A DNA stretch of 40,430 nucleotides, taken from assembly GCA_022641375.1 (NCBI GenBank), contig JALCDF010000010.1:1-40430 (forward strand), read 5' to 3'. Below the pieces are notes generated by a model. The model worked only from the letters and a program-made list of their open reading frames with translations. It was not told the origin of the DNA and did not search any database. This DNA is from Megasphaera sp. Its GTDB lineage: Bacteria; Bacillota; Negativicutes; Veillonellales; Megasphaeraceae. Positions 7,318-21,545 of this stretch are shown here, piece after piece. The position numbers and the translations under genes are program-made. Numbering within the stretch: position 1 is the stretch's first letter; the number at the start of each line of letters is the position of its first letter.

Positions 7318-7559
7318 GATATCATCTCCGTTTATCTACCTTTTATCTTATCATACCATGTGCGGAAAGGTAAATAAAGCGGTAATGGCAGAGAACGGTA
7401 TCCTGGGAGGAGAAAGTTTCCCTGCCTGTTAATATAGAAAAATCCTAAAATATATTGTATAACCCAGATAAATATTATAGAATGTAATGTGCATGTTACA
7501 AAGACATGTATGATGAATATATGATAAGATTTCGATGAAGAATTAGGGGGAGTTTGGGT

Positions 7560-8835
7560 ATGAAGTTACCTAAAAAACTGGGATTAAGCACGCAGATACT
7601 ACTTGGATTGTTTTTAGGCGCCGTCGTTGGATATTGTTTTCCCGATTTTGGGGCGCAGTTGAAACCTGTCGGGGATGGGTTCCTGCGTATGATTAAAATG
7701 ATCATCGTGCCTTTGATTTTCAGTACATTGGTTATGGGCATTGCCGGTACGGGAGATTTTAAAAAACTGGGACGGTTAGGCGGGAAATCCATCATCTGGT
7801 TTGAATTTGCTACGACGATTGCGCTGGCCGTGGGGCTGCTGGTCATGAATTTATCTGAACCCGGCGTCGGTGTCCAGATTGCGGCTTCGTCATCCAGTCA
7901 AAGCAGTGCTGCTGCCGCCAGTCAGAAGAGTATTGATATGGTTCAATATATGGTCCATATTATTCCGACGAATATTATTGATGCCGCAGCCCGGCAGGAT
8001 ATGTTGGAAATCATCTTTTTCACCTGTTTTTTTTGGTGTCGCTGTAGCGCATATCGGGCCAGCCGGTGATATTATTGTCCAATTTTGCCGCAGTGTTGCC
8101 GAAGCGATGTTTAAGGTAACCGGTTATGTCATGAAATTAGCGCCTATCGGTGTATTTGCCATGATTTCCTATACGGTTGCCAGCTTTGGGATTGCCATGC
8201 TCATTCCCTTGGGGAAACTCATTTTTGCAGTTCTCTTTGCTACCGTTTTGTTCATCTGCCTGGTTGCGATGATTGCTACGGCATTGACACATATTAATTT
8301 CTTCCATGTGATCCGCTGCCTGAAAGACATCCTGTTCCTGGCTTTTTCTACGGCCAGCAGTGAAGCGGCCTTGCCGGTAGCGATGCAGCGGCTGGAAACC
8401 CTGGGAGTGCCGAAGAATATCGTTACCTTCGTCATGCCGACGGGATATTCCTTCAACCTCGATGGCTCGACGTTGTATAGTTCGGCGGCGATCTTGTTTA
8501 TTGCCCAGCTCTATGGCATTGACTTGTCGCTGGGACAGCAGCTCCTCATTATGATTACCCTCATGTTGTCGACAAAAGGGATCGCCGGTGTTCCAGGCGC
8601 GGGTATCATTGTCGTCGCGGCAACGGCTGCGGCCTTTGATCTGCCTGCTGAAGGGGTGGCTATCGTCCTCGGTATCGACCGTATCCTTGATATGATCCGC
8701 ACGGCGTGTAACGTCTGCGGCAATTGTATGGCAACAGTCCTCGTTGCCCGTTGGGAACACGAAATAACCGCTGCTGTTTTTAAAAAAGCGTATGATGAAT
8801 ATTTCCATAAAAAGGAAACGAATCCCATAGCGTAA
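7560..8835 (+). pseudogene. Dicarboxylate/amino-acid:cation symporter (SDF/DAACS family), frameshifted
   Basis: Two overlapping frames together encode one sodium:dicarboxylate symporter of about 425 residues. The first (7560-8069) has the N-terminal membrane segments. The second continues with TASSEAALPVAMQ, the NLDGST motif, KGIAGVPGAG and GIDRILDMIRTACNVCGN, the signatures of glutamate/aspartate/C4-dicarboxylate carriers. The break lies in a run of eight Ts at 8027-8034, where seven would restore CFFGVAVAH. The rest of the gene is intact, so this may be a sequencing error, a recent mutation or slippage-based phase variation. Without a fix the product would stop at 8069 and lack the transport core. 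The ATG at 7560 is preceded by AGGGGGA. Confidence 0.85.
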
Positions 8836-8850
8836 TCAGCCAATCTATCA

Positions 8851-8880
8851 GTGACTTTTTAGGCATATATATGGTATAAT
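8851..8880 (+). promoter_or_regulatory. Promoter of the hydrogenase/nitrogenase-like operon
   Basis: GTGACT (8851-8856) and TATAAT (8875-8880) are 18 bases apart, and TG precedes the -10 as TGGTATAAT (extended -10). Transcription would start near 8887, about 165 bases before the first gene, leaving room for the structured leader. Confidence 0.6.
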
Positions 8881-8904
8881 TGATGCAATAAAATAAGTAA
8901 TCTG

Positions 8905-9029
8905 GAAGGATATCCTGACAGAAAACTTCATTTCAAGCTCCGTTCTGACTGCAAAGACATCTGCGCAGGTCAGGCGAAAGCACATTCAGGATACGCAGGC
9001 GCTGTGCTTTCACACAGCGCCGTTTTTTT
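8905..9029 (+). promoter_or_regulatory. Structured leader with terminator/antiterminator choice (riboswitch-like, class unknown)
   Basis: Three mutually constraining helices can be drawn. A closing stem pairs TATCCTGA (8911-8918) with TCAGGATA (8986-8993). Inside it, CTGACTGC (8945-8952) pairs with GCAGGTCAG (8965-8973, one bulge). An intrinsic terminator has a perfect 9-bp stem, GGCGCTGTG (8998-9006) with CACAGCGCC (9013-9021), and seven Ts (9023-9029). The terminator's left arm and loop, TGTGCTTTC (9003-9011), can instead pair perfectly with GAAAGCACA (8976-8984), which would act as antiterminator. This layout before the first gene's ribosome site is typical of ligand- or protein-controlled attenuation. 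I could not match the aptamer to a class I know. Confidence 0.55.
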
Positions 9030-9051: not shown

Positions 9052-9303
9052 ATGGAAAAAAGACTGGCTTTAATCGGTATCATCGTCAGCAATCGGGAAT
9101 CGACCAAGAAGTTGAATGATATTCTGCACGAATATGGAAGTATTATTTTAGGGCGCATGGGGGTTCCTTACAGAGAACAGGGCATCCATGTCATTAGTAT
9201 TATCGTCGATGCACCGCAGGATACAATCAGTGCGTTGTCCGGAAAACTGGGTATGATCCCGGATATCAGTACCAAGACGATTTATCCGGCAGTGCCGAAG
9301 TAG
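9052..9303 (+). CDS. TM1266-type iron-only hydrogenase system putative regulator
   Basis: This 83-residue protein has an ACT/NikR-C-like beta-alpha-beta pattern: an N-terminal strand LALIGIIVSNR, a helix with the EYGSIILGRMGVPYRE segment, and a second strand IHVISIIVDAP before a helix predicted to end the fold. Proteins of this size and pattern are found beside [FeFe]-hydrogenase maturase genes (hydE, hydF, hydG) and are called putative regulators; their molecular role is not established. The ATG at 9052 has AAAGGAAGGA upstream, just past the attenuator. It is the first gene of the 13-gene unit and supports a hydrogenase-related purpose for it. The next gene follows after nine bases. Confidence 0.8.
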   Translation: MEKRLALIGIIVSNRESTKKLNDILHEYGSIILGRMGVPYREQGIHVISIIVDAPQDTISALSGKLGMIPDISTKTIYPAVPK

Positions 9304-9312
9304 GAGCTGCAT

Positions 9313-10062
9313 ATGTTGAAATTAGCAATCTATGGTAAAGGCGGCATTGGAAAATCTACGATGACCAGTAATTTATCAGCGGCGTTTGCCTATTTGGGCA
9401 AACGGGTCATACAAATCGGCTGTGATCCCAAAGCGGATTCCACGTTTAATCTTTTGGGGGGCCGGCCGGTGGAACCGGTCATGAATTATATGCGGGAACA
9501 TGATGAAGATCCGCAGCGGATAGAAGATATTTCCCGTGTCGGGTACGGCGGCGTCCTCTGTATTGAGACCGGTGGTCCGACGCCGGGGCTGGGGTGTGCC
9601 GGCCGGGGAATTATTGCAACCTTTGCGTTACTGGAAGACCTGGGACTCTTTGAAACGTATCATCCCGATGTAGTCCTTTACGATGTCCTGGGGGACGTCG
9701 TCTGCGGCGGGTTTGCCGCACCGATACGGGAAGGCTATGCCGAAGAGGTCCTCATCGTGACATCGGGAGAAAAAATGGCGTTATATGCGGCGAATAATAT
9801 TCATACGGCCGTAGAGAATTTTGCTGACCGCAGTTATGCCAAAGTGCGGGGAATTATTTTAAACCGCCGCAATATACCCGATGAAGAGCAGAAAGTACAT
9901 GAGTTCGCCAAACGGACCCAGTTGGATATCATCGGCGATATTCCCCGCAGCGATGATATCAACCGGTATGAAGAAGAAGGCAAGACCGTCATTGAAGGCA
10001 ATCCGGAGCTGCCAATCAGCAAACTATTCCTGTCATTGGCACAAACGTTGATGGAACGGTAA
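9313..10062 (+). CDS. NifH-like ATP-dependent reductase component, copy 1
   Basis: This 249-residue protein belongs to the NifH/BchL/CfbC family, which uses ATP to pass low-potential electrons to a two-subunit partner. Visible features are the P-loop GKGGIGKST (residues 9-16), the CDPKADST segment (from 37), and the two cysteines that hold the shared [4Fe-4S] cluster of the dimer: Cys95 in PGLGCAGRG and Cys131 in [11 protein letters not shown]. It is about 40 residues shorter than true NifH and lacks the long C-terminal tail. Its partners follow immediately. It is a clear paralogue of the protein at 17040-17798. An ordinary nitrogenase role is unlikely given the context. Confidence 0.93.
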
Positions 10063-10109
10063 AATGATGAATTTGATTTGTATAATTCAAGGATTTTAAG
10101 GAAGCGGAT

Positions 10110-11408
10110 ATGGAAAATAAACCTTATGCAATTACGGTGCGGAACCTGGTGAAATTGGGCCGGCAGGAGATTCCGCCGGAACTGATTTCTTCTACGCACC
10201 TTATTTATAATTCGCCGGCAGCATTGGCATTTAACTCGCCGGGAGCCCAGGGGTTCGGCGTGAAACGGGCTGGCCTTGCCATTCCCGGTTCGGTGATGCT
10301 TTTAGTGGGCCCGGACTGCTGCGGCCGTAATACGACGATACTCAGCGAAATGGGCGGATACAGTGATAGGTTCTTCTTTTACATTATGGATGAGACCGAT
10401 ATCGTAACCGGCCGTCATCTGAAGAAGATTCCCCAGGCCGTCGAAGAAGTTGTAAAATCATTGCCGCAAGAACCGACGATGGTCATGATCTGCATGACCT
10501 GTGTCGATGCCTTGCTGGGAACGGATATGGAACGAGTCTGCCGCAAGGCGTCGCAACAGGCAGGGCTGCCGGTGGTCCCTTGCTATATGTATGCGTTGAC
10601 CCGGGAAGGGCGCAAACCACCTATGGTAGATGTGCGTCGTGCGGTGTATTCCTTATTGGAACCGCAGACACGGCATCGCCGTACGGTCAATCTGCTGGGG
10701 TATTTTGCGCCGCTCAGAGAGCAATGTGAGTTTTACGATATCCTCCATCAATTAGGAGTGCAGCATATTCAGGAATTATCGCGGTGCCGGACCTTTGCGG
10801 AATATACGGCATTGTCACAGGCCAATTTTAATATCATCCTTCATCCCGAAGCCCGTCTGGCGGCACAGACCATGGAAAAGCGTCTCCATATACCCAGTAT
10901 TGAACTGACACGTCTCTATCAGGTCGACAAGATTCACAGCCAGTACACGGCCTTTGCCCGGGTGCTGGAAAAAGAACTGGATGATGACGTATGGCGGGAA
11001 CCGGCACGGGACTGCGTTCACCGTATAAAAAAGAGCTGCCAGGGGGCGACGGTGGCCATTGGGGAGATGCAGAACGGCAATGCATTTGAAATGGCGTTGG
11101 CACTGAGCCGGTATGGGTTCCATATAACGGAACTATACGCCAATGTATCTCCCGATGATTTCGTGTATCTGAATCAGCTGGCCGTACTCAGTCCGGATAC
11201 GCAGGTGTATTCTAACTTATCGCCGTCTATGTTGTATTATGAGGGAAATGAGCATCCGGTGGATCTTACTATCGGCAAAGATGCGGCCTATTATCATCCC
11301 CGCAGTGCCCATGTTTTTTGGAATGAAGAAGTCCAGCCTTTTGGGTATGACGGCGTGACGGCACTGCTCCATCAGATCCGGGAAGCGCTGGAAGGGAGGC
11401 GGATGTGA
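10110..11408 (+). CDS. NifD-like nitrogenase component 1 protein, copy 1
   Basis: This 432-residue protein has the oxidoreductase/nitrogenase component 1 fold pattern. Cysteines in the positions used by P-cluster-type clusters are seen in GPDCCGR (70-71) and MVMICMTCVDALLGTD (128 and 131). A further Cys226 in SRCRTFAEY is shared with the second D-like protein. The region matching the FeMo-cofactor cysteine ligand of NifD (before the MEKRLHIP segment, about 257) has no cysteine. It should therefore hold a bridging Fe-S cluster and a substrate site other than FeMo-co. It probably pairs with the next protein and takes electrons from the NifH-like protein 47 bases upstream. The substrate is unknown. 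Confidence 0.88.
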   Translation: MENKPYAITVRNLVKLGRQEIPPELISSTHLIYNSPAALAFNSPGAQGFGVKRAGLAIPGSVMLLVGPDCCGRNTTILSEMGGYSDRFFFYIMDETDIVTGRHLKKIPQAVEEVVKSLPQEPTMVMICMTCVDALLGTDMERVCRKASQQAGLPVVPCYMYALTREGRKPPMVDVRRAVYSLLEPQTRHRRTVNLLGYFAPLREQCEFYDILHQLGVQHIQELSRCRTFAEYTALSQANFNIILHPEARLAAQTMEKRLHIPSIELTRLYQVDKIHSQYTAFARVLEKELDDDVWREPARDCVHRIKKSCQGATVAIGEMQNGNAFEMALALSRYGFHITELYANVSPDDFVYLNQLAVLSPDTQVYSNLSPSMLYYEGNEHPVDLTIGKDAAYYHPRSAHVFWNEEVQPFGYDGVTALLHQIREALEGRRM

Positions 11409-12436
11409 TGAAAGGATTATGGAAATATATTTCTCCCTTTGCGCCGGATCAGTCCGGGGCAGCTGCTGTATTATACGGGCTGGGCGGTATCGTCGTCATC
11501 TGTGACGCCGGCGGCTGTGCCGGCAATATCTGTGGGTTTGATGAACCGCGCTGGTTCAGTGGCAGGAAAAGTGCCGTGTTCAGTGCCGGCCTTCGTGATA
11601 TGGATGCTATCTTAGGCCGTGATGACCGGCTGGTAGCTAAGTTATGTGCGGCAGCGCAGGAAATAGATGCGGCTTTTGCAGCCATTATCGGTACGCCGGT
11701 ACCGGCCGTCATTGGGACAGACTATAAAGGGCTGTCCCGCATGACCGAAAAACAATTGGCGATTCCTGTCATTACCATCGATACGAATGGCATGACCCGG
11801 TATGATAAGGGAATCATCAAGGCGTACCAGGGGATGCTCACTGCTTTTGCGGATCGGCAGGCAGTGTCGGTAAAGGGTGTGGTCAATGTTCTCGGGGCAG
11901 TGCCGCTGGATTTGATGGCACCGTCCGGCTTAGTGCAGATCAGACCGGTTTTGAAGACGGAAGGATGGGATACCATCCGGTTGTTTGATACGTTGGCAGA
12001 CTATATCCATGCCGGTGAGGCGGAACGGAATATCGTCATCTCGCCGGCCGGACGCGAAGCGGCTGAATGGCTGCAGCGTACATTTGGTACCCCGTGGGAA
12101 TGCCGCTATTTCGGATTAGAAGCGATTGCCCGTTCGGTACCGGCAACGGCAGGACGGATCCTGATCGTGCATCAGCAGATAGCGGCGAATGCGCTGCGCA
12201 GCCTGATAGAAGGGGAAACGGATGCCGAAATTACGACAGCCACATGGTTCTCCTGTCAGCAGGAGGATTGCCGTGCGGGAGATGTGCAACTGCATGAAGA
12301 AGACGATTTCTCTCATCTCGCCGATACCAATTCGTTTGACTGCATTATTGGCGATGCATATTTTAAAAAAGCGCTGCCTCACTTTCAGGGTACGTATATT
12401 GATTTTCCTCATTTTGCCGTATCCGGGAGGGAATAG
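11408..12436 (+). CDS. NifK-like nitrogenase component 1 protein, copy 1
   Basis: This 342-residue protein has the component 1 fold, with the N-terminal pattern CDAGGCAGNICGFDEPRW (Cys32, Cys37, Cys42) and the GTDY turn after AAIIGTPVP. The position that is LLCTP in the second K-like protein is IIGTP here, so one cluster cysteine is missing, and the protein is about 70 residues shorter than that paralogue. A GTG at 11405 is a possible alternative start; I prefer the ATG at 11408, which overlaps the stop of the D-like gene by one base and lies eight bases after GGGAGG. Translational coupling and adjacency suggest a heterodimer or heterotetramer with the D-like protein. Its substrate is unknown. 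Confidence 0.85.
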   Translation: MKGLWKYISPFAPDQSGAAAVLYGLGGIVVICDAGGCAGNICGFDEPRWFSGRKSAVFSAGLRDMDAILGRDDRLVAKLCAAAQEIDAAFAAIIGTPVPAVIGTDYKGLSRMTEKQLAIPVITIDTNGMTRYDKGIIKAYQGMLTAFADRQAVSVKGVVNVLGAVPLDLMAPSGLVQIRPVLKTEGWDTIRLFDTLADYIHAGEAERNIVISPAGREAAEWLQRTFGTPWECRYFGLEAIARSVPATAGRILIVHQQIAANALRSLIEGETDAEITTATWFSCQQEDCRAGDVQLHEEDDFSHLADTNSFDCIIGDAYFKKALPHFQGTYIDFPHFAVSGRE

Positions 12437-12438
12437 CC

Positions 12439-14733
12439 ATGCTGACAGAGATAATCCGTGTTTTCGGTATCGTCCAGGGCGTCGGTTTCCGCCCGTTTGT
12501 GAGCCGCCTGGCCAATCGGTGCGGTGTGAAGGGCAGCGTGTGCAATAAGGGTTCCTATGTGGAAATCCTCGTTCAGGGGGATGAAAAAAAGAAACAACAG
12601 TTTCGGGATGCCCTGGAACAGGAAGCGCCGCCGCGGTCGGCAATCCTGAAAGTGGATGTGACACAGGAAGACCGCGATGCCTGTGATTCATTTCAGATTA
12701 TTGAAAGCGCCAGGGAAACGGGTGATATTTTTGTATCTCCCGATATTGCGATTTGTGATGAATGTAAAAAAGAGCTTTTTGACAAGAATAACCGGCGGTA
12801 CCTTCATCCGTTCATCAATTGTACGGCCTGTGGCCCCCGTTTGACGATTTTGGATTCGATGCCCTACGACCGGGAACGGACGAGCATGGGTGAATTTCCC
12901 ATGTGTGATGCCTGCCAGTACGAATATACCCATGCCGACACGCGGCGGTATGATGCCCAGCCGGTATGCTGTAATGATTGTGGTCCCGAAGTATATTTGC
13001 TGGGACGGTCCGAACGCCGTCGCCAGGCTATTACCGAAACGCGGCGTATCCTGTCGGCCGGGGGCATCGCGGCAGTCAAGGGCATCGGTGGTTTTCACCT
13101 CTGCTGTGATGCTGCGAACGAGGCCGCTGTGAATCGGCTGAGGCGGCAAAAAAGACGGCCTGTCAAGCCCTTTGCCGTCATGATGAAAGATTTGGCAGCG
13201 GCCCGGCGTGAATGTGTTGTGGAAAAGGGGCAGGAAGCTGTCCTGGATGGGCATCAAAAACCGATCCTCCTCCTGCGCAAACGGGCTGACAGTACGCTTT
13301 GTCCGGAAATTTCACCGGGTAATCCCAAAGTCGGTATCATGCTTCCCTATGCACCATTGCAACTCCTGCTATTCCGGTATGATGACGGGCTGTGTATGCC
13401 TGATGCATTAGTCATGACCAGTGCCAATGAATCGGGAGCCCCTATCTGCCATACCGATGAAGAAGCGGTACAAGAACTGACGGGATTGTGTGACGTTATT
13501 TTATCCCACAACCGGAAGATACGGCTGCGGGCTGATGATTCGGTCATGGACTGGTATGACGGAGCGCCGTATATGATCCGCCGCTCCCGGGGCTATGCGC
13601 CGCTGCCCTTTTTTGTCGATACAGGAAAGGGTGAAGTGCTGGCTATAGGGGGCGAATTGAAGAATACGTTCTGCATTAGCCGGAACCATCTCTTTTATTT
13701 GTCTCCTTACATCGGGGATATGGCAGATATCCGGACGGTGGAAGCATTGCGGCAATCGGTAGTGCGTATGGAAACGTTGCTCGAAGCCAATCCTTCTGTC
13801 GTGGCCTGCGATACCCATCCCCGTTATAATACGGTGGCAGCAGCCCATGATATGGGGCTTCCCGTCGTGGAAGTGCAACATCATTATGCCCATGTTTTAT
13901 CTTGTATGGCGGAAAATAATTATTTAGATCCCGTTATCGGTGTTTCCTTTGATGGAACGGGGTATGGCGATGACGGGACCATCTGGGGCGGCGAGATTTT
14001 CACAGCGGATATGCATCGCTATGACCGGTATGCTTCCATCGCTCCATTCCATCAGCTCGGCGGCGACGCTTCAGCAAAAGAGGGTTGGCGCATTGCCGTA
14101 TCCATGATATACGGGCTGACTGGAAAAGATAAAGAAAAAACAACCAGTATAGTAGATGCATTGCATCTTTGTGATGAAAAGAATCTGGCGGCCCAATGGT
14201 TCATGTATGATCAACATATTAACAGTGTCTTATCAACCAGCGCCGGCCGTCTCTTTGATGCCGTCAGTGCTATCAGCGGTCTTTGTCGTGCATCTACATT
14301 TGAAGGAGATGCTTCGATGCGGCTTCAATTCGCTGCCGAACGCTGGATAGAAGGGCATGAGGTAAAACCTGCGGAGAGCATAGGACCGCGGCCGGGGTCC
14401 CGCTGGATCCTGCCGACGGATACATTGGTGGCGACGTTGATCCGCCACCGGCTGGCAGGCACTTCGCCGGAAGAAATGGCCTGGGAGTTTCATGCAGCCC
14501 TAGCCGGGATGATAGCCGGCGCGGTCGTTGAGGCACGCAATCATACGGGTATACAGACAGCAGCACTGAGCGGCGGCGTGTTTCAGAACCGGCTGCTATT
14601 GAGCCTTACCGATACCATGCTGCAGGCCCGGGGATTCAACGTGCTGCGTCACAGCCTGGTTCCGCCCAATGATGGCGGCATAGCACTGGGACAGGCGGTG
14701 TATGCGGCAGTTAACGGATTTTCTGATATATGA
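12439..14733 (+). CDS. hypF: Carbamoyltransferase HypF
   Basis: This 764-residue enzyme has the complete HypF order: an acylphosphatase domain (GIVQGVGFRPFV near residue 10), two zinc-finger CxxC pairs (around 105-185, with CDECKKELF, CTACGPR, CDACQYEY, CNDCGP), a YrdC-like adenylation domain and a C-terminal Kae1-like domain with HHYAH and FDGTGYGDDG. HypF moves the carbamoyl group from carbamoyl phosphate to the C-terminal cysteine of HypE, the first step in making the cyanide ligands of [NiFe]-hydrogenase. It begins two bases after the K-like gene and shares the operon with hypCDE. Finding it among nitrogenase-like genes and hydF, with no [NiFe]-hydrogenase in view, is unusual. Confidence 0.97.
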   Translation: MLTEIIRVFGIVQGVGFRPFVSRLANRCGVKGSVCNKGSYVEILVQGDEKKKQQFRDALEQEAPPRSAILKVDVTQEDRDACDSFQIIESARETGDIFVSPDIAICDECKKELFDKNNRRYLHPFINCTACGPRLTILDSMPYDRERTSMGEFPMCDACQYEYTHADTRRYDAQPVCCNDCGPEVYLLGRSERRRQAITETRRILSAGGIAAVKGIGGFHLCCDAANEAAVNRLRRQKRRPVKPFAVMMKDLAAARRECVVEKGQEAVLDGHQKPILLLRKRADSTLCPEISPGNPKVGIMLPYAPLQLLLFRYDDGLCMPDALVMTSANESGAPICHTDEEAVQELTGLCDVILSHNRKIRLRADDSVMDWYDGAPYMIRRSRGYAPLPFFVDTGKGEVLAIGGELKNTFCISRNHLFYLSPYIGDMADIRTVEALRQSVVRMETLLEANPSVVACDTHPRYNTVAAAHDMGLPVVEVQHHYAHVLSCMAENNYLDPVIGVSFDGTGYGDDGTIWGGEIFTADMHRYDRYASIAPFHQLGGDASAKEGWRIAVSMIYGLTGKDKEKTTSIVDALHLCDEKNLAAQWFMYDQHINSVLSTSAGRLFDAVSAISGLCRASTFEGDASMRLQFAAERWIEGHEVKPAESIGPRPGSRWILPTDTLVATLIRHRLAGTSPEEMAWEFHAALAGMIAGAVVEARNHTGIQTAALSGGVFQNRLLLSLTDTMLQARGFNVLRHSLVPPNDGGIALGQAVYAAVNGFSDI

Positions 14734-14762
14734 TATAAAATTATTTCAAAGGAGTGATACCT

Positions 14763-14969
14763 ATGTGCGTGGGATTACCAGCACGAGTAGTAACGATAAA
14801 AGACGGTATGGCCTTAGTCGATGCGTCAGGAGCCAGACGGAAAGTGTCTGCGGCGCTGATCGATTCACTGGATCCGGGAGATTATGTCATGGTTCATGCC
14901 GGCATGGCGATTGCTAAGATTACTGATACGGATGATGATGAAATGGATGATATTTTGGAGGACGTATAA
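14763..14969 (+). CDS. hypC: Hydrogenase maturation chaperone HypC
   Basis: This 68-residue protein starts MCVGLPARV, the HypC/HybG signature. Cys2, exposed after removal of the initiator Met, binds the iron that receives CO and CN in the HypC-HypD complex. I start at the ATG at 14763 because only this start puts the essential cysteine at position 2; a GTG nine bases upstream would bury it. AAGGAG lies at 14748-14753. The C-terminus is acidic (DTDDDEMDDILEDV). Its stop overlaps the hypD start by one base, implying coupled translation. Confidence 0.95.
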   Translation: MCVGLPARVVTIKDGMALVDASGARRKVSAALIDSLDPGDYVMVHAGMAIAKITDTDDDEMDDILEDV

Positions 14970-16027
14970 TGACAGTTGTGAAAAAGAACAAGGCCCTTGA
15001 TATAATCCGATGTTATGATGGGCCGCCGGTGCGTATCATGGAAGTGTGTGGCACTCATACACATGAAATCTTCCGGCAGGGAATCCGTCAGATCCTGCCG
15101 CCGCAGGTGACGCTCATTTCCGGGCCGGGATGTCCGGTCTGTGTGACGCCGGTAGGATATGTCGATGAAGCCATCTGGCTGGCCTTGGAAAAGGGCGTCA
15201 CGATTTGTACATTCGGGGATCTGGTTCGTGTGCCCGGATCGGAAATGAGCCTGGCCAGAGCCCGCAGTAAAGGAGCTCATATTGAAATCGTATATTCGCC
15301 TGTCGATGCTTATGAATATGCCCGGGATCATCAGGAAGAACAGACGGTATTTCTTTCTATCGGTTTTGAAACGACGACGCCGGCGAGTTGCCTGGCCGTT
15401 CAAAAAGCGCAGGAAGACGGGCTCACCAATTTTTCTATCCTGACAGCGAATAAGACGATGCCCCAGGCGTATGAAGCATTGAAAGGGAGCGCCGATGTAT
15501 TCCTTTATCCGGGCCATGTGGATGCGGTCATGGGGACGAAGCATTGCGAAGAACTGGTACAGGAAGGTATATCCGGCGTCGTCACCGGATTTACGGCCAA
15601 GGAACTGCTTACGGCTTTCGCGGTGATCCTGGCAAAATTCCCGGCCGGGAAACCATTTTTTAAAAACTGTTATCCCCGGGTAGTTACCCGCGACGGCAGC
15701 CTTTTGGGACAAGGAATGATGAACAAGTTTATGGAACCGTGTGATACAGAATGGCGCGGTTTGGGAATCATTCCCCTGTCGGGGCTGCAGCTTCGGGAGG
15801 CCTATACGGATTTTGATGCCAGAAAAAAATATGGCGTACCGAAGATAAAAGGCAGGGCGAATCCTGCCTGTCATTGTGGTGAAGTACTGCAGGGAAAATG
15901 CCGTCCGTCGGATTGTCCGATTTTCGGCACGGGATGTACGCCGGAGCACCCTGTAGGAGCTTGTATGGTTTCCCATGAAGGGGCTTGTTCGGCATATTAC
16001 CAATACGGAGGTGTTTTGCATGAGTAA
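14969..16027 (+). CDS. hypD: Hydrogenase maturation protein HypD
   Basis: This 352-residue iron-sulfur protein forms with HypC the platform on which Fe(CN)2CO is built. All hallmark motifs are intact: CGTHTH (27-32), GPGCPVC, GFETT, PGHVD and the C-terminal cysteine array CHCGEVLQGKCRP ... CPIFG ... C that binds a [4Fe-4S] cluster. The first cysteine of CGTHTH is thought to help hold the substrate iron and to cleave cyanide from HypE. The start overlaps the end of hypC, and hypE starts eight bases before the hypD stop. No degenerate residue was seen, so it should be functional. Confidence 0.97.
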   Translation: MTVVKKNKALDIIRCYDGPPVRIMEVCGTHTHEIFRQGIRQILPPQVTLISGPGCPVCVTPVGYVDEAIWLALEKGVTICTFGDLVRVPGSEMSLARARSKGAHIEIVYSPVDAYEYARDHQEEQTVFLSIGFETTTPASCLAVQKAQEDGLTNFSILTANKTMPQAYEALKGSADVFLYPGHVDAVMGTKHCEELVQEGISGVVTGFTAKELLTAFAVILAKFPAGKPFFKNCYPRVVTRDGSLLGQGMMNKFMEPCDTEWRGLGIIPLSGLQLREAYTDFDARKKYGVPKIKGRANPACHCGEVLQGKCRPSDCPIFGTGCTPEHPVGACMVSHEGACSAYYQYGGVLHE

Positions 16028-17024
16028 TGTCATTACGCTGGCCCATGGTGCCGGCGGCAGACAGACGGCGGAATTGATTGATAAAGTATTTAAAGCACAT
16101 TTTTCCAACCCACAGTTTACGGCAGATGATGCGGCAGTGCTGCCTATCGATAATACGAAATTGGCGTTTACGACGGATGGATTCATCGTATCACCACCGG
16201 ACTTCCCCGGCGGCAATATCGGCAAGCTGAGTATTTGCGGGACGGTCAATGATTTATCCTGCATGGGAGCACAGCCGTTGTATTTATCTTGTGCATTCGT
16301 CATTGAAGAAGGGTTTCCGTTGGCGAAAGTAGAAGAATATGCAGCGGCCATGGAAAAGACTGCTGCAGAAGCAGGCGTGCGCATTGTAGCCGGTGATACC
16401 AAGGTCGCCGGTAAAGGCCAGGTAGACCACCTGTTCATTACGACGACCGGTATCGGACGCATTATGGACGGCGTTTGCCTGTCCGGTTCGCAGGCTAAGT
16501 CCGGCGATGCGGTCATCGTGACCGGTGATGTCGGCCGGCACGGATGTACTATCCTGCTGGCCCGCAACCATTTCGGTATCGATGCGAAAGTGACCAGTGA
16601 TTGTGCGCCCTTATGGGGAACCGTCCAGTCTATGCTGGAAACGACAAAGGATATCCACGTCATCCGCGATGCCACCCGGGGCGGGGTAGGCACAGTCCTG
16701 TACGAAATCGCCTCTCAAAGCCAGGTGGGAATCCATTTGGACAGTCAGGCCATTCCGGTCGATCCGGCTGTCAGCGGCGTCTGCGGCATGTTGGGATTAG
16801 AACCGCTCTATCTTGCCTGCGAAGGGCGTCTCGTCGTCTTTGCGCCGCAGGATCAGGCAGCGGCACTTGTAGCAGCCTTGCGTAATGGACCGTATTCACA
16901 GCAGGCAGCGGTCATCGGTCAGGTCACGGCAGATCATGCCGGTCAGGTCGTCATGCGCACGGAAATCGGCACGGAAACATTGTTGCCGCCGCCGGGAGGA
17001 GAACTTCTGCCGAGAATATGTTGA
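16020..17024 (+). CDS. hypE: Hydrogenase maturation protein HypE
   Basis: This 334-residue member of the PurM/ThiL-like ATP-binding family begins with the usual AHGAGGR motif near residue 8 and ends with the conserved PRIC. Its terminal cysteine is carbamoylated by HypF and dehydrated with ATP to a thiocyanate, the cyanide donor. I start at the ATG at 16020, with GGAGGTG upstream, although the frame is open further. It overlaps hypD by eight bases. The presence of hypC, D, E and F together without hypA or hypB means the CN/CO-ligand part of the pathway is here while the nickel-insertion part is not. Confidence 0.97.
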   Translation: MSNVITLAHGAGGRQTAELIDKVFKAHFSNPQFTADDAAVLPIDNTKLAFTTDGFIVSPPDFPGGNIGKLSICGTVNDLSCMGAQPLYLSCAFVIEEGFPLAKVEEYAAAMEKTAAEAGVRIVAGDTKVAGKGQVDHLFITTTGIGRIMDGVCLSGSQAKSGDAVIVTGDVGRHGCTILLARNHFGIDAKVTSDCAPLWGTVQSMLETTKDIHVIRDATRGGVGTVLYEIASQSQVGIHLDSQAIPVDPAVSGVCGMLGLEPLYLACEGRLVVFAPQDQAAALVAALRNGPYSQQAAVIGQVTADHAGQVVMRTEIGTETLLPPPGGELLPRIC

Positions 17025-17039
17025 GGAAAGGATACTATC

Positions 17040-17798
17040 ATGATAAAAATAGCTATCTATGGTAAGGGTGGTATCGGTAAATCGACAACGGTATCCAATA
17101 TGGCAGCAGCGCTGGCCGATAAAGGATTGAAAGTCATGCAGATCGGCTGCGATCCCAAAGCGGATTCCACGATATCCCTGCACGGTCAGGGACCGATGCC
17201 GACTGTCCTTGATTTGATTCGCACCAAGGGAAATGATTTCACCCTTCAGGATATGACGCGGCGCGGCTATAAAGATGTCGTCTGCGTCGAAGCCGGCGGC
17301 CCGACACCGGGATTGGGGTGTGCCGGCCGGGGCATCATAGCCGCATTGGAAAAACTTCAGGAAAAGGGCGCGTATGAAACATATCGTCCGGATGTGGTAT
17401 TTTATGATGTATTAGGCGATGTGGTTTGCGGCGGGTTTTCCATGCCCATGCGCAAAGGCTATGCCGATGCCGTATGTATCGTTACATCCGGTGAAAACAT
17501 GTCTATCCATGCAGCGGCGACGATTGCCATGGCCATTGAAAATTTTAAAGGCCGGGGATATGCCCGGCTGGGCGGGCTGATCCTGAATCATCGGGATGTA
17601 AAACAAGAAGACGAAAAGGTACAAGAACTGGCAGAAGATATCCACACGTCTGTGATTGGCAGATTGTCCCGCAGTGATACGGTATTAGCGGCGGAAGAAC
17701 AGCAAAAAACCGTCATCGAAGCATTTCCGGACAGTGAAATGGCTGACGAATACCGCCGCCTTGCCGATGCGGTATATCAGGCGGTGATATCATGTTGA
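17040..17798 (+). CDS. NifH-like ATP-dependent reductase component, copy 2
   Basis: This 252-residue paralogue of the protein at 9313-10062 has the P-loop GKGGIGKST (9-16), CDPKADST (from 37) and the cluster ligands Cys94 in PGLGCAGRG and Cys130 in [11 protein letters not shown]. The two copies share long identical stretches around the nucleotide and cluster sites but differ in the region after residue 45 and at the C-terminus, where partner contacts would lie. This fits two dedicated reductases, each serving its own D/K-like pair. The gene starts 15 bases after hypE and overlaps the next gene by seven bases. Confidence 0.93.
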
Positions 17799-19120
17799 AA
17801 CGCGTTGATGGCAGGGAAGATACGTCCGGAGCCCGTGTCCTTTTAAAGGACGCGTCTTTTCCGGAACCGTTCTATGACGGGCTGGAATACTCGCCGCCGG
17901 CCCGGGGAACGTGGAATATCGTCCATACGACGATGCTCGTGCCGGATTCACACCAAATTTATATTTGTGCCTTGGGATGTCTCCGCGGCGTCGTATTGAC
18001 AGCAGCAGAAATGAATGCCATGGACCGGTTTTCCTCCATTGTCATCGAAGAACATCATTTATATGACGGGTCCATGGAAGATACGATCGTCAATGGCGTA
18101 GGGGAAATCCTCGCGGGTCTGCTGCCGAAAACGCCCCGGGTGATATTCTTGTATCCGGCCTGTATCCATCATTTCATGGGAGCGGATATGGACGGCATCG
18201 TGAAACGCCTGCAGGAAACATATACACAGACTCGTTTTGTCTTATGCTGGATGGATCCGATCCGCCGCCATTCCAACTTGCCGCCGGAAATCCGGACCCG
18301 CTGTCAGATTTACAGTTTGTGGAAAAAACAACCGGCAGACCAGAACTCGGTAAATCTGATCGGGAGCAATCTGGCAGTCGAAAATGACAGTGCCCTGATG
18401 AAACTGCTTCGGGATAACGGCATGACGGTGCGGCAGCTGCCGACATGTCAGACCTATGCAGAATATGAAGCAATGGGCTCGGCGGGGCTGAACCTGGCAT
18501 TTGAACCACTGGCCAGGCCGGTATTGCCATTTTTGCAGGAACGGTACGGTCAGCCGGGAATATATCTTTCTGACAGTTTTGATTATCAGGAGATTACGGC
18601 GGCGCTCTATCGTGTTGCCGATGCCATCGGGGCCGGGCATCCCGACTGCCGTGATGAAATCAACCGTTGCGAAACGGCTTTTCGCCTGGCTAAAGAAGCC
18701 ATCGGAGATATGCCTGTAGCCATCGATTATGCCGCCACATTCCGCCCGTTCAGCCTGGTCAGGGCATTATTGGGGCATGGCTTTCAGGTACGGCGCATCT
18801 ATGTGGATGTATGTAACGGTGACGACAGCAACGATTTTCAATCGTTGCAGCAGAGCCATCCGGCACTGGAACTCTATCCGACGCGCCACGCCAAGATGCG
18901 CTGCATGGACCGCCATAGTGATGAGTTTTTGGCCATCGGCCAGAAGGCGGCCTATTTCACGGGGACCCGGCATTTTGTTGATTTGGCTGAAGGCGGCGGC
19001 TGGTATGATTTTGCCGGCATCCGCAGGATGCTGGCAGGTATGGTCGATGCCTGCGAAAAGGAAAAAGATCCGCGTGACTATGTCCGCATCAAAGGATGGG
19101 GGTGCCATATATGCCGATGA
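17792..19120 (+). CDS. NifD-like nitrogenase component 1 protein, copy 2
   Basis: This 442-residue component 1-fold protein is related to the one at 10110-11408. Cluster-type cysteines are Cys59 and Cys63 (CALGCLRG) and Cys124 in [12 protein letters not shown]; Cys219 in [13 protein letters not shown] matches Cys226 of copy 1. The C-terminus ends in a GCHICR tail with a CxxC pair that copy 1 lacks. No FeMo-cofactor-type ligand pair is recognisable. It probably forms a complex with the K-like protein that overlaps its 3' end. What it reduces is unknown; its place beside hypE and hydF points to a step in hydrogenase-type cofactor synthesis, which is an inference. Confidence 0.87.
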
Positions 19121-20343
19121 AAGAAGCGGTGAGCCGTATTTCTACCTATTCTGCCGATACATTCGGCGTTTGTTCGGCGTTGTTCGAACTGGGCGGCATG
19201 ATAGTCATTCATGATCCGTCAGGGTGCAACTCGACGTATACGACGCATGATGAGCCGCGCTGGTACGACCGGGACAGCCTTATTTTTATTTCCGGCGTCG
19301 ATGAAATGGATGCCATTATGGGCAACGATGATAAATTTGTCCGCGACGTCGTTACCGCCGCCCGGGATTTCTCGCCGCGATTCATCGTCCTCCTGTGTAC
19401 GCCGATTCCGCTCATGACCGGTACGGACATGCCGGCGCTGGCACTGGAAATTGAAGGACAAACAGGGATTTCCACGTTTGCGGCGCCGACCAACAGCATG
19501 GATTTGTATGATGAAGGCATATCCTGGGCGTTTGCTATGCTGGCCCGGCATGTTGTCCGGCCCGGTCAGGATGCCGTCAAAGACAGGATGGCTTGTTCGT
19601 GGCAGCCGGTATTTGCTTCCGGCGGTTCCGTAGGGAAATGTGCAGCTCCGGTCAAAGTCAATATCATCGGGATGACGCCGTTGGATTTTGCGATGAATGG
19701 CAGTGAACTGTCTATCCGGAAGGTCCTGGAAGCGGCCGGGATGGAGGTCATAAGCTGTTGGGCTATGGGCAGCACGCTGGATGATATCGGCTGGGCTGAT
19801 CAGGCAGATGTCAATCTCGTCGTATCCTATGGCGGCTTGGCGGCGGCGCAGGAAATGGCAGGCCGTTTTGCCCAGCCCTATGTCGTTGCTGTGCCTGACG
19901 GGCCGATGCTGGCGGCGGCTGTTTGTAAGGATTTAAAAGACGCGGCAGTACATAAATCTTCCGTTTTCACATGTCACAGGCGAAGCCAGGCGATGGACAG
20001 CGGTATCGTCATTGTTGGTGAAGTGGTTGGCAGTGCTTCGTTGGCGGTAGCCTTGGAACAGGTATCAGGGGGAGGCGTACGCATATTTTGTCCTCTCCAT
20101 ACGGCCGAAGGTATATTGACGGACCGCGACCGGCTGATTCCATCGGAAAAAGAGTTGCGGACGGCTTTGCAGGGGGCAAAGACCGTTATCGCCGATCCTA
20201 TGTACCAGCCGATATGTCCACCGGCAAGCCGTTTTATCCCCTGGGGCCATGAAGCTTTTTCCGGCCGTATTTACCAGGACAGTATTCCTAATTTAATTGA
20301 CGGATTTGATGAATTCGCAGCGCTTGTAAAAGGAGAGGATTAA
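19111..20343 (+). CDS. NifK-like nitrogenase component 1 protein, copy 2
   Basis: This 410-residue component 1-fold protein has Cys21 (FGVCSALFELGG), Cys39 in HDPSGCNSTYTTHDEPRW and Cys96 in LLCTPIPLMTGTD, the positions expected for half of a bridging cluster at the D/K interface. The DEPRW and GTD-turn motifs are shared with the K-like protein at 11408-12436. I start at the ATG at 19111, which follows GGGGGTG; ATGs at 19096 and 19117 are also possible, the last overlapping the preceding stop as ATGA. It is followed after two bases by hydF, so the nitrogenase-like and HydF proteins are made from tightly coupled messages. Confidence 0.86.
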   Translation: MPMKEAVSRISTYSADTFGVCSALFELGGMIVIHDPSGCNSTYTTHDEPRWYDRDSLIFISGVDEMDAIMGNDDKFVRDVVTAARDFSPRFIVLLCTPIPLMTGTDMPALALEIEGQTGISTFAAPTNSMDLYDEGISWAFAMLARHVVRPGQDAVKDRMACSWQPVFASGGSVGKCAAPVKVNIIGMTPLDFAMNGSELSIRKVLEAAGMEVISCWAMGSTLDDIGWADQADVNLVVSYGGLAAAQEMAGRFAQPYVVAVPDGPMLAAAVCKDLKDAAVHKSSVFTCHRRSQAMDSGIVIVGEVVGSASLAVALEQVSGGGVRIFCPLHTAEGILTDRDRLIPSEKELRTALQGAKTVIADPMYQPICPPASRFIPWGHEAFSGRIYQDSIPNLIDGFDEFAALVKGED

Positions 20344-20345
20344 CG

Positions 20346-21545
20346 ATGGGTCTCAATGATACCCCGTCAGGGGAACGGGTACATATCGGGTTTTTTGGCT
20401 GCCGCAATGCCGGCAAATCCAGTGTGGTGAATGCCGTTACCGGTCAGAATCTGGCGATTGTTTCCGAGAAAAAGGGAACGACGACGGACCCGGTATACAA
20501 AGCGATGGAATTATTGCCCCTGGGGCCGGTCATGATCATCGACACGGCAGGCTTTGATGATACAGGAGAATTAGGAGCCCTGCGTATCAAGAAAACGCAG
20601 CAGGTGCTCAATAAGACGGATATTGCCGTCCTGGTCGTCGACGGCACGCTGGGGCTGACCACAGCGGACAGGCAGTTGCTGCAGCTCATCAAAGCCAAGG
20701 GAATTGCCCATATCGTCGTCTATAATAAAAGCGATTTATTAGGCAGTCATCAGCCGGCGCAGGCGGATGAAATCTATGTCAGTGCCGCTGAAAAAAAAGG
20801 TATCACCGAATTAAAGGAACGATTGAGTACATTGATACCCGATACGGAAGATGCGTTTCCCATCGTCAGGGATTTGATTCATCCGGCAGATTTTATCTTC
20901 CTGGTTGTCCCTATCGACACGGCGGCGCCGAAAGGACGCCTTATCCTGCCGCAGCAACAGACTATCCGGGATATCCTTGAAGCGGATGGGGCGGCCATGG
21001 TCGTGAAGGAAACGGAATTATCGCATGCATTGGCCCATATAGGACAGAAACCGGCCATGGTCATTACGGACAGCCAGGCCTTTGCTCACGTATCAGCGGA
21101 TACGCCGCCGGATATCCCGTTGACGTCTTTTTCTATCCTCATGGCCCGTCATAAAGGTTCGTTAGAAGCGGCTGTCCGCGGGGTAACCGCCATCGAACAT
21201 CTTCAGGACGGCGATACGGTGCTGATTGCCGAAGGGTGTACCCATCACCGTCAGTGTGATGATATCGGTACGGTGAAAATACCGCGGTGGCTGCACAACG
21301 ATACGGGCAAAAAAATTAAAATCGAAACGGTCAGCGGGGTAGAATTCCCTGATGATTTGTCGAAATATGCTCTTATTATTCATTGCGGCGGCTGTATGTT
21401 GAATGCCAGAGAAGTCCGTTATCGTGTAAAATGTGCAGCCGATCAACATATTCCCATGACGAATTATGGAATTGTCATTGCCTATATGCAGGGAATATTA
21501 AAACGCAGCCTGGAAATCATTCCCTATTTAGCGGATTTAGTATAG
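20346..21545 (+). CDS. hydF: [FeFe]-hydrogenase maturation GTPase HydF
   Basis: This 399-residue protein has the full HydF plan: an N-terminal GTPase domain (P-loop GCRNAGKSS 18-26, DTAGF, NKSD), a dimerisation domain, and a C-terminal cluster domain with Cys298 and His300 of the CxH motif and His346-Cys347-x-x-Cys350. In known systems HydF carries the diiron precursor made with the radical-SAM enzymes HydE and HydG and delivers it to HydA. Neither hydE nor hydG is in this window; hydF instead ends a run of nitrogenase-like and hyp genes. All expected motifs are intact, so this is a real HydF and not a generic Era-like GTPase. Confidence 0.95.
   Translation: MGLNDTPSGERVHIGFFGCRNAGKSSVVNAVTGQNLAIVSEKKGTTTDPVYKAMELLPLGPVMIIDTAGFDDTGELGALRIKKTQQVLNKTDIAVLVVDGTLGLTTADRQLLQLIKAKGIAHIVVYNKSDLLGSHQPAQADEIYVSAAEKKGITELKERLSTLIPDTEDAFPIVRDLIHPADFIFLVVPIDTAAPKGRLILPQQQTIRDILEADGAAMVVKETELSHALAHIGQKPAMVITDSQAFAHVSADTPPDIPLTSFSILMARHKGSLEAAVRGVTAIEHLQDGDTVLIAEGCTHHRQCDDIGTVKIPRWLHNDTGKKIKIETVSGVEFPDDLSKYALIIHCGGCMLNAREVRYRVKCAADQHIPMTNYGIVIAYMQGILKRSLEIIPYLADLV

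Follow-up and report, generated by a model that had tools for sequence, protein, structure and literature searches.

The leader of the operon at 9052–21545 in the window (the whole analysed stretch of 40,430 nucleotides) very probably attenuates transcription and is assigned to a new class of RNA, as judged from comparison of related leaders. Covariation, a conserved fold and a competing pairing specific to each leader make attenuation of H-cluster maturation genes its most likely function. The RNA family is widespread in Clostridia and Negativicutes, both groups of anaerobes, and is apparently undescribed.

The host is a Megasphaera-like organism with a draft genome of 1.69 Mb (79% complete). 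The first gene of the operon belongs to the TM1266 family and scored 118 bits against TIGR03959 (cut-off 61). The operon combines hydF and hypCDEF with two NifH/NifE-like sets, and contains neither hydE nor hydG. HydG was found above the cut-off in 0 of the 15 genomes of the Megasphaera-like genus, and the operon may represent a HydG-free route to the H-cluster. Upstream, a sodium:dicarboxylate-symporter-like gene (7554–8835) is divided into two overlapping frames by a frameshift or an assembly error. The features of the region are as follows.

8851–8880, forward strand: promoter-like site of the sigma-70 type, GTGACT-18-TATAAT, agreeing with 10/12 consensus positions and with TG preceding the −10 (consensus match only)
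8895–8928, forward strand: predicted sensor hairpin 1 (P1 8895–8898/8925–8928, loop AA/AA, P2 8901–8904/8919–8922, loop GA/GA, P3 8907–8909/8914–8916)
8941–8976, forward strand: predicted sensor hairpin 2 (8941–8942/8975–8976, 8945–8946/8972–8973, P5 8949–8952/8965–8968, loop AA/GC, P6 8955–8956/8961–8962)
8976–8984, forward strand: antiterminator 5′ half, GAAAGCACA, abutting hairpin 2 and sharing base 8976 with it
8998–9029, forward strand: intrinsic terminator, a perfect 9-bp stem (8998–9021) followed by T7
9003–9011, forward strand: antiterminator 3′ half, TGTGCTTTC, inside the terminator and a 9-bp complement of 8976–8984
9052–9303, forward strand: TM1266-family gene (PF21699/TIGR03959; profile match), opening the operon
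9313–21545, forward strand: remainder of the operon, comprising NifH-like, two NifE-like, hypF, hypC, hypD, hypE, NifH-like, two NifE-like and hydF genes

The promoter-like site, the perfect terminator with its T7 and the ribosome site preceding the ATG at 9052, all pointed out in the initial annotation, were confirmed in the sequence, and the alternative 9-bp pairing proposed there (8976–8984/9003–9011) is also conserved in relatives. The 150-nt leader folded better than 200 of 200 dinucleotide shuffles (z = −3.64); the z value was only −1.45 when the terminator was removed, indicating that the terminator supplies much of the fold signal. A different outcome was obtained for the closing stem 8911–8918/8986–8993, which had been described as enclosing a domain of about 80 bases. 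The two strands are a true 8-bp complement here, but the stem is not kept in relatives and conflicts with the covarying hairpin 8895–8928. This fold was rejected because it is not conserved, and was replaced by the two tandem hairpins. The conserved element begins further upstream than the supposed domain, and its copy in the window spans 8890–9029.

Covariation was analyzed in alignments of increasing size. Eight leaders with two hairpins made up the first alignment, in which 11 of the 24 predicted pairs showed double changes. With 18 sequences, 51 double-change cells were counted, compared with 15.6 after shuffling. Among 20 diverse leaders, the covariation score was 0.612 (0.217 when shuffled and at most 0.193 when the pairing partners were slid), and 65 cells had changed on both sides compared with 18.9. 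Pairing cells in these 20 leaders amounted to 95.5% in hairpin 1 and 75% in hairpin 2, where the alignment is poorer. Homologous leaders thus contain a conserved, covarying sensor domain of the kind by which riboswitches are recognized. In the window, hairpin 1 is backed by covariation, by the fold and by a match of covariance model R3 to 8894–8980 (E = 9e-13). In hairpin 2, P5 covaries and the basal pairs are largely invariant.

Both hairpins have a common shape of 2–4 pairs, a 2x2 loop, 3–4 pairs, a second 2x2 loop and 2–3 pairs, with typically GA or AA on each side of the 2x2 loops, and they resemble each other in many relatives. Loop sequences such as GAGGGUUCGUCCC are strongly conserved. 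A strict hairpin-2 pattern was matched by 22 of 89 TM1266 leaders but by no shuffled sequence. Leaders with a single hairpin also exist (L116, L132, L063 and others). Minimal leaders consist of one hairpin of 28–30 nt, for example CUGA-CAC-AAAG..CUGA-GUG-AAAGG, which is nearly two-fold symmetric.

We then compared the terminator with its competitor. An intrinsic terminator lies between the promoter and the first gene, as in attenuators, and terminators were found in 51 of 89 TM1266 leaders compared with 4.0 in shuffles. An automatic rule scored 6 of 51 leaders as having no terminator, and five of these six show a terminator-like hairpin by eye. In one leader (L009 of genome G006, 307–488), the hairpins are kept and the terminator region is replaced by approximately 180 repeat-rich bases ending in a terminator-like hairpin. 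The last bases of hairpin 2, with the consensus AAGGCGAGAGAAUAG in many of the relatives, complement the 5′ arm of the terminator together with its loop (CUAUCCUUGUGCC), and this mutually exclusive antiterminator pairing is kept across relatives. In 45 leaders, the mean pairing energy was −10.61 kcal/mol with the leader's own arm and −9.04 kcal/mol with swapped arms (permutation sd 0.34, z = −4.5, 0 of 20,000 permutations; the relatives are not independent). Swapped arms are a conservative control because a GCCUU core is common to most arms.

The specificity of this complementarity for each leader argues against a structural or processing element, such as an RNase site or stability hairpins with constitutive readthrough, which we consider improbable on the sequence data. 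A terminator with competing pairings would also be expected in ribosome- or tRNA-dependent attenuation. For a T-box, no covariance-model match was obtained in any leader tested, and Rfam did detect an unrelated T-box in one locus. For a leader peptide, segment lengths differ by non-multiples of three and no conserved short reading frame was seen in the leaders compared, so that this type of control is most unlikely. The proposal of a riboswitch-like attenuator in the initial annotation was upheld by the covarying homologues, the blank Rfam search described below and the conservation of terminator/antiterminator competition as a property.

Covariance models R1, R2 and R3 were built in succession, R2 and R3 because R1 was too narrow. 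Of the 15 genomes of the genus, 9 were found to carry the leader by a DNA search and 13 by models R2 and R3; TM1266 is present in 14. One genome with TM1266 (G002) has a run of N at the expected leader position, and another (G008) has neither TM1266 nor the RNA; thus, the leader is present in every genome of the genus where it would be visible. R3 matched 28 of 380 Negativicutes genomes at E 0.01, of which 27 were true and one (G210) was false. In a class-wide draw of Clostridia, 39 of 391 genomes were matched, comprising 36 true and 3 false matches in coding sequence, about the number of false matches expected at E 0.01. The R2 matches L047, L049, L050 and L052, located in coding sequence or far from relevant genes, were judged false, as were the R3 matches in G476, G729, G701 and G210, located in coding sequence or with no relevant gene near. 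A hairpin-2-like pattern and a terminator also precede TM1266 in a deltaproteobacterial MAG (L123), possibly through transfer or a misbinned contig.

In the class scans, all true copies but one precede TM1266 and/or hydE/hydG, the exception preceding an SsuABC-like transporter. All 36 true Clostridia copies are followed by TM1266 and/or hydE, with hydE directly following the RNA in G755 and G678. The RNA precedes TM1266 in the 27 true Negativicutes genomes, save for one extra copy, the second in G004, which is located directly 5′ of an SsuC-like permease gene. Further contexts came from genomes picked through their TM1266 loci: the RNA is located directly before hydE-hydG in G407, before NifH-like/NifE-like genes followed by FecB/FecCD-like transporter genes in G388 (L186; TM1266 on another contig), and together with TM1266 and an SsuA-family ABC transporter in G402 and G393. 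In G755, the TM1266-SsuABC cluster apparently has its own single-hairpin leader, as judged by eye. The copy L037 precedes a transporter, which indicates that adjacency to TM1266 is not a requirement. An SsuABC/TauABC-like ABC transporter is repeatedly linked to TM1266 or the RNA (L037/L038, L184, L185 and L231; four separate genomes). In genome G346, TM1266 occurs twice, and a separate RNA leader accompanies each gene (L043 and L051).

These contexts contradict the alternative, considered in the initial annotation, that the hairpin simply ends the transcript of the upstream transporter gene and has no regulatory role for the operon. The terminator is located approximately 160 bases past the transporter reading frame, as such a role would allow. 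However, in many genera the element accompanies TM1266/hydE with differing genes upstream, a promoter-like site lies between the upstream gene and the leader, and the covariation is found 5′ of the terminator. A plain terminator is thus very improbable.

We propose the following mechanism. RNA polymerase would first synthesize a pseudo-symmetric hairpin, or two of them, whose 2x2 internal loops are rich in purines. In hairpin 2, the 3′ strand and the bases just beyond it (AGGCGAAAGCACA here) could alternatively pair with the terminator, along its 5′ arm and loop, and this antiterminator pairing would allow transcription to proceed into the H-cluster maturation genes. When an effector holds the hairpins, the terminator would form and transcription would stop. 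The sign is inferred from the arrangement: a stabilized hairpin 2 occupies the antiterminator strand, which would favour termination. Readthrough would accordingly be conditional, with the effector acting as an OFF signal. The likeliest effector would be TM1266, a protein already mentioned in the initial annotation, whose gene opens most such operons and which could act on its own leader and on others in trans, perhaps together with a ligand of its own. We assign a probability of roughly one half to this reading as a whole, that is, an attenuator switched off by its effector with TM1266 in that role.

The same attenuator could instead be a riboswitch, its tandem hairpins sensing a small molecule or ion linked to the assembly of the H-cluster (perhaps the compound that the SsuABC-like system transports), with TM1266 a mere passenger of the operon. 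We consider this a serious possibility with a chance somewhat below even. Control of biosynthesis genes together with a transporter is the usual footprint of metabolite riboswitches and counts against TM1266; here, SsuABC-like systems are under the RNA in G004, G402, G393 and G755. The conserved loop sequences point in the same direction, and two similar tandem hairpins resemble tandem aptamers. Against a riboswitch, a metabolite aptamer would usually be larger than the minimal hairpins of about 29 nt, whereas the near two-fold symmetry of these hairpins is what the site of a symmetric oligomer might show. Moreover, the RNA persists in the Megasphaera-like genus without HydG (15 genomes), making a signal specific for HydG chemistry unlikely.

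Co-occurrence was examined in 32 genomes, namely 28 true RNA carriers, G008 without the RNA, and the false matches G476, G729 and G701. TM1266 was present in 28 of the 28 true carriers, leaving no RNA-bearing genome without it, even where hydE or nifH-like genes follow the RNA and TM1266 is on a different contig (G755, G678, G407 and G388). This is a weak test because TM1266 is common in HydG genomes anyway: of 80 RNA-negative Clostridia genomes, 50 have HydG, and 40 of these have TM1266 and 10 do not; related genomes in these counts also do not amount to independent cases. No RNA was matched in many genomes with TM1266, partly owing to the limited sensitivity of the models. The predicted TM1266 structure (mean pLDDT 93.8) matched 2NZC and the C-terminal domain of NikR. 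TM1266 is slightly preferred to a metabolite as the effector, given its co-occurrence in 28 of 28 genomes and its NikR-like sensor fold, which comes with no DNA-binding domain. More tentatively, TM1266 might be a NikR-type sensor domain turned RNA-binding attenuation protein, which recognizes the symmetric hairpins in tandem and switches off the genes for H-cluster assembly in both Clostridia and Negativicutes, among them a genus that seemingly matures its hydrogenase without HydG.

[FeFe]-hydrogenases are among the main hydrogen-makers of anaerobes. To our knowledge, TM1266 has been named a putative [FeFe]-hydrogenase regulator with no known target, and no control of the maturation genes is described in the literature searched. 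A conserved RNA before these genes in dozens of genomes is a concrete candidate target for TM1266, and provides an RNA class whose effector can be tested. It also ties an uncharacterized SsuABC-like transporter to hydrogenase assembly. The leader is likely novel: it was not reported in the literature searched, which included RNA-discovery papers. No Rfam 15 family matched the leaders at or above the gathering score, and the weak sub-threshold matches have nothing in common, in agreement with the earlier statement that no recognized RNA class was evident.

Similar to transcription-terminating riboswitches, the leader has a conserved structured domain sharing its 3′ strand with the antiterminator and precedes biosynthesis and transport genes, but it differs from them in having no Rfam 15 match. 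TM1266 shares its fold with the C-terminal domain of NikR (TM-score of approximately 0.85, predicted model), whereas NikR has a ribbon-helix-helix DNA-binding domain that TM1266 lacks. The ribonucleic antiterminator hairpins of LicT/BglG offer a tentative parallel, being also short, with two internal loops, a GGCAAACC-like 3′ strand and a protein dimer as effector. In contrast to these, the loops of the leader are mostly symmetric 2x2 loops, its hairpin is clear of the terminator, and TM1266 is not of the BglG type. The PyrR-regulated pyr attenuators of Bacilli likewise combine a regulator encoded by the first gene, terminator/antiterminator competition and a hairpin with a conserved internal loop. 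No sequence relation to that system was seen, and TM1266 has a NikR/ACT-like fold rather than that of a phosphoribosyltransferase.
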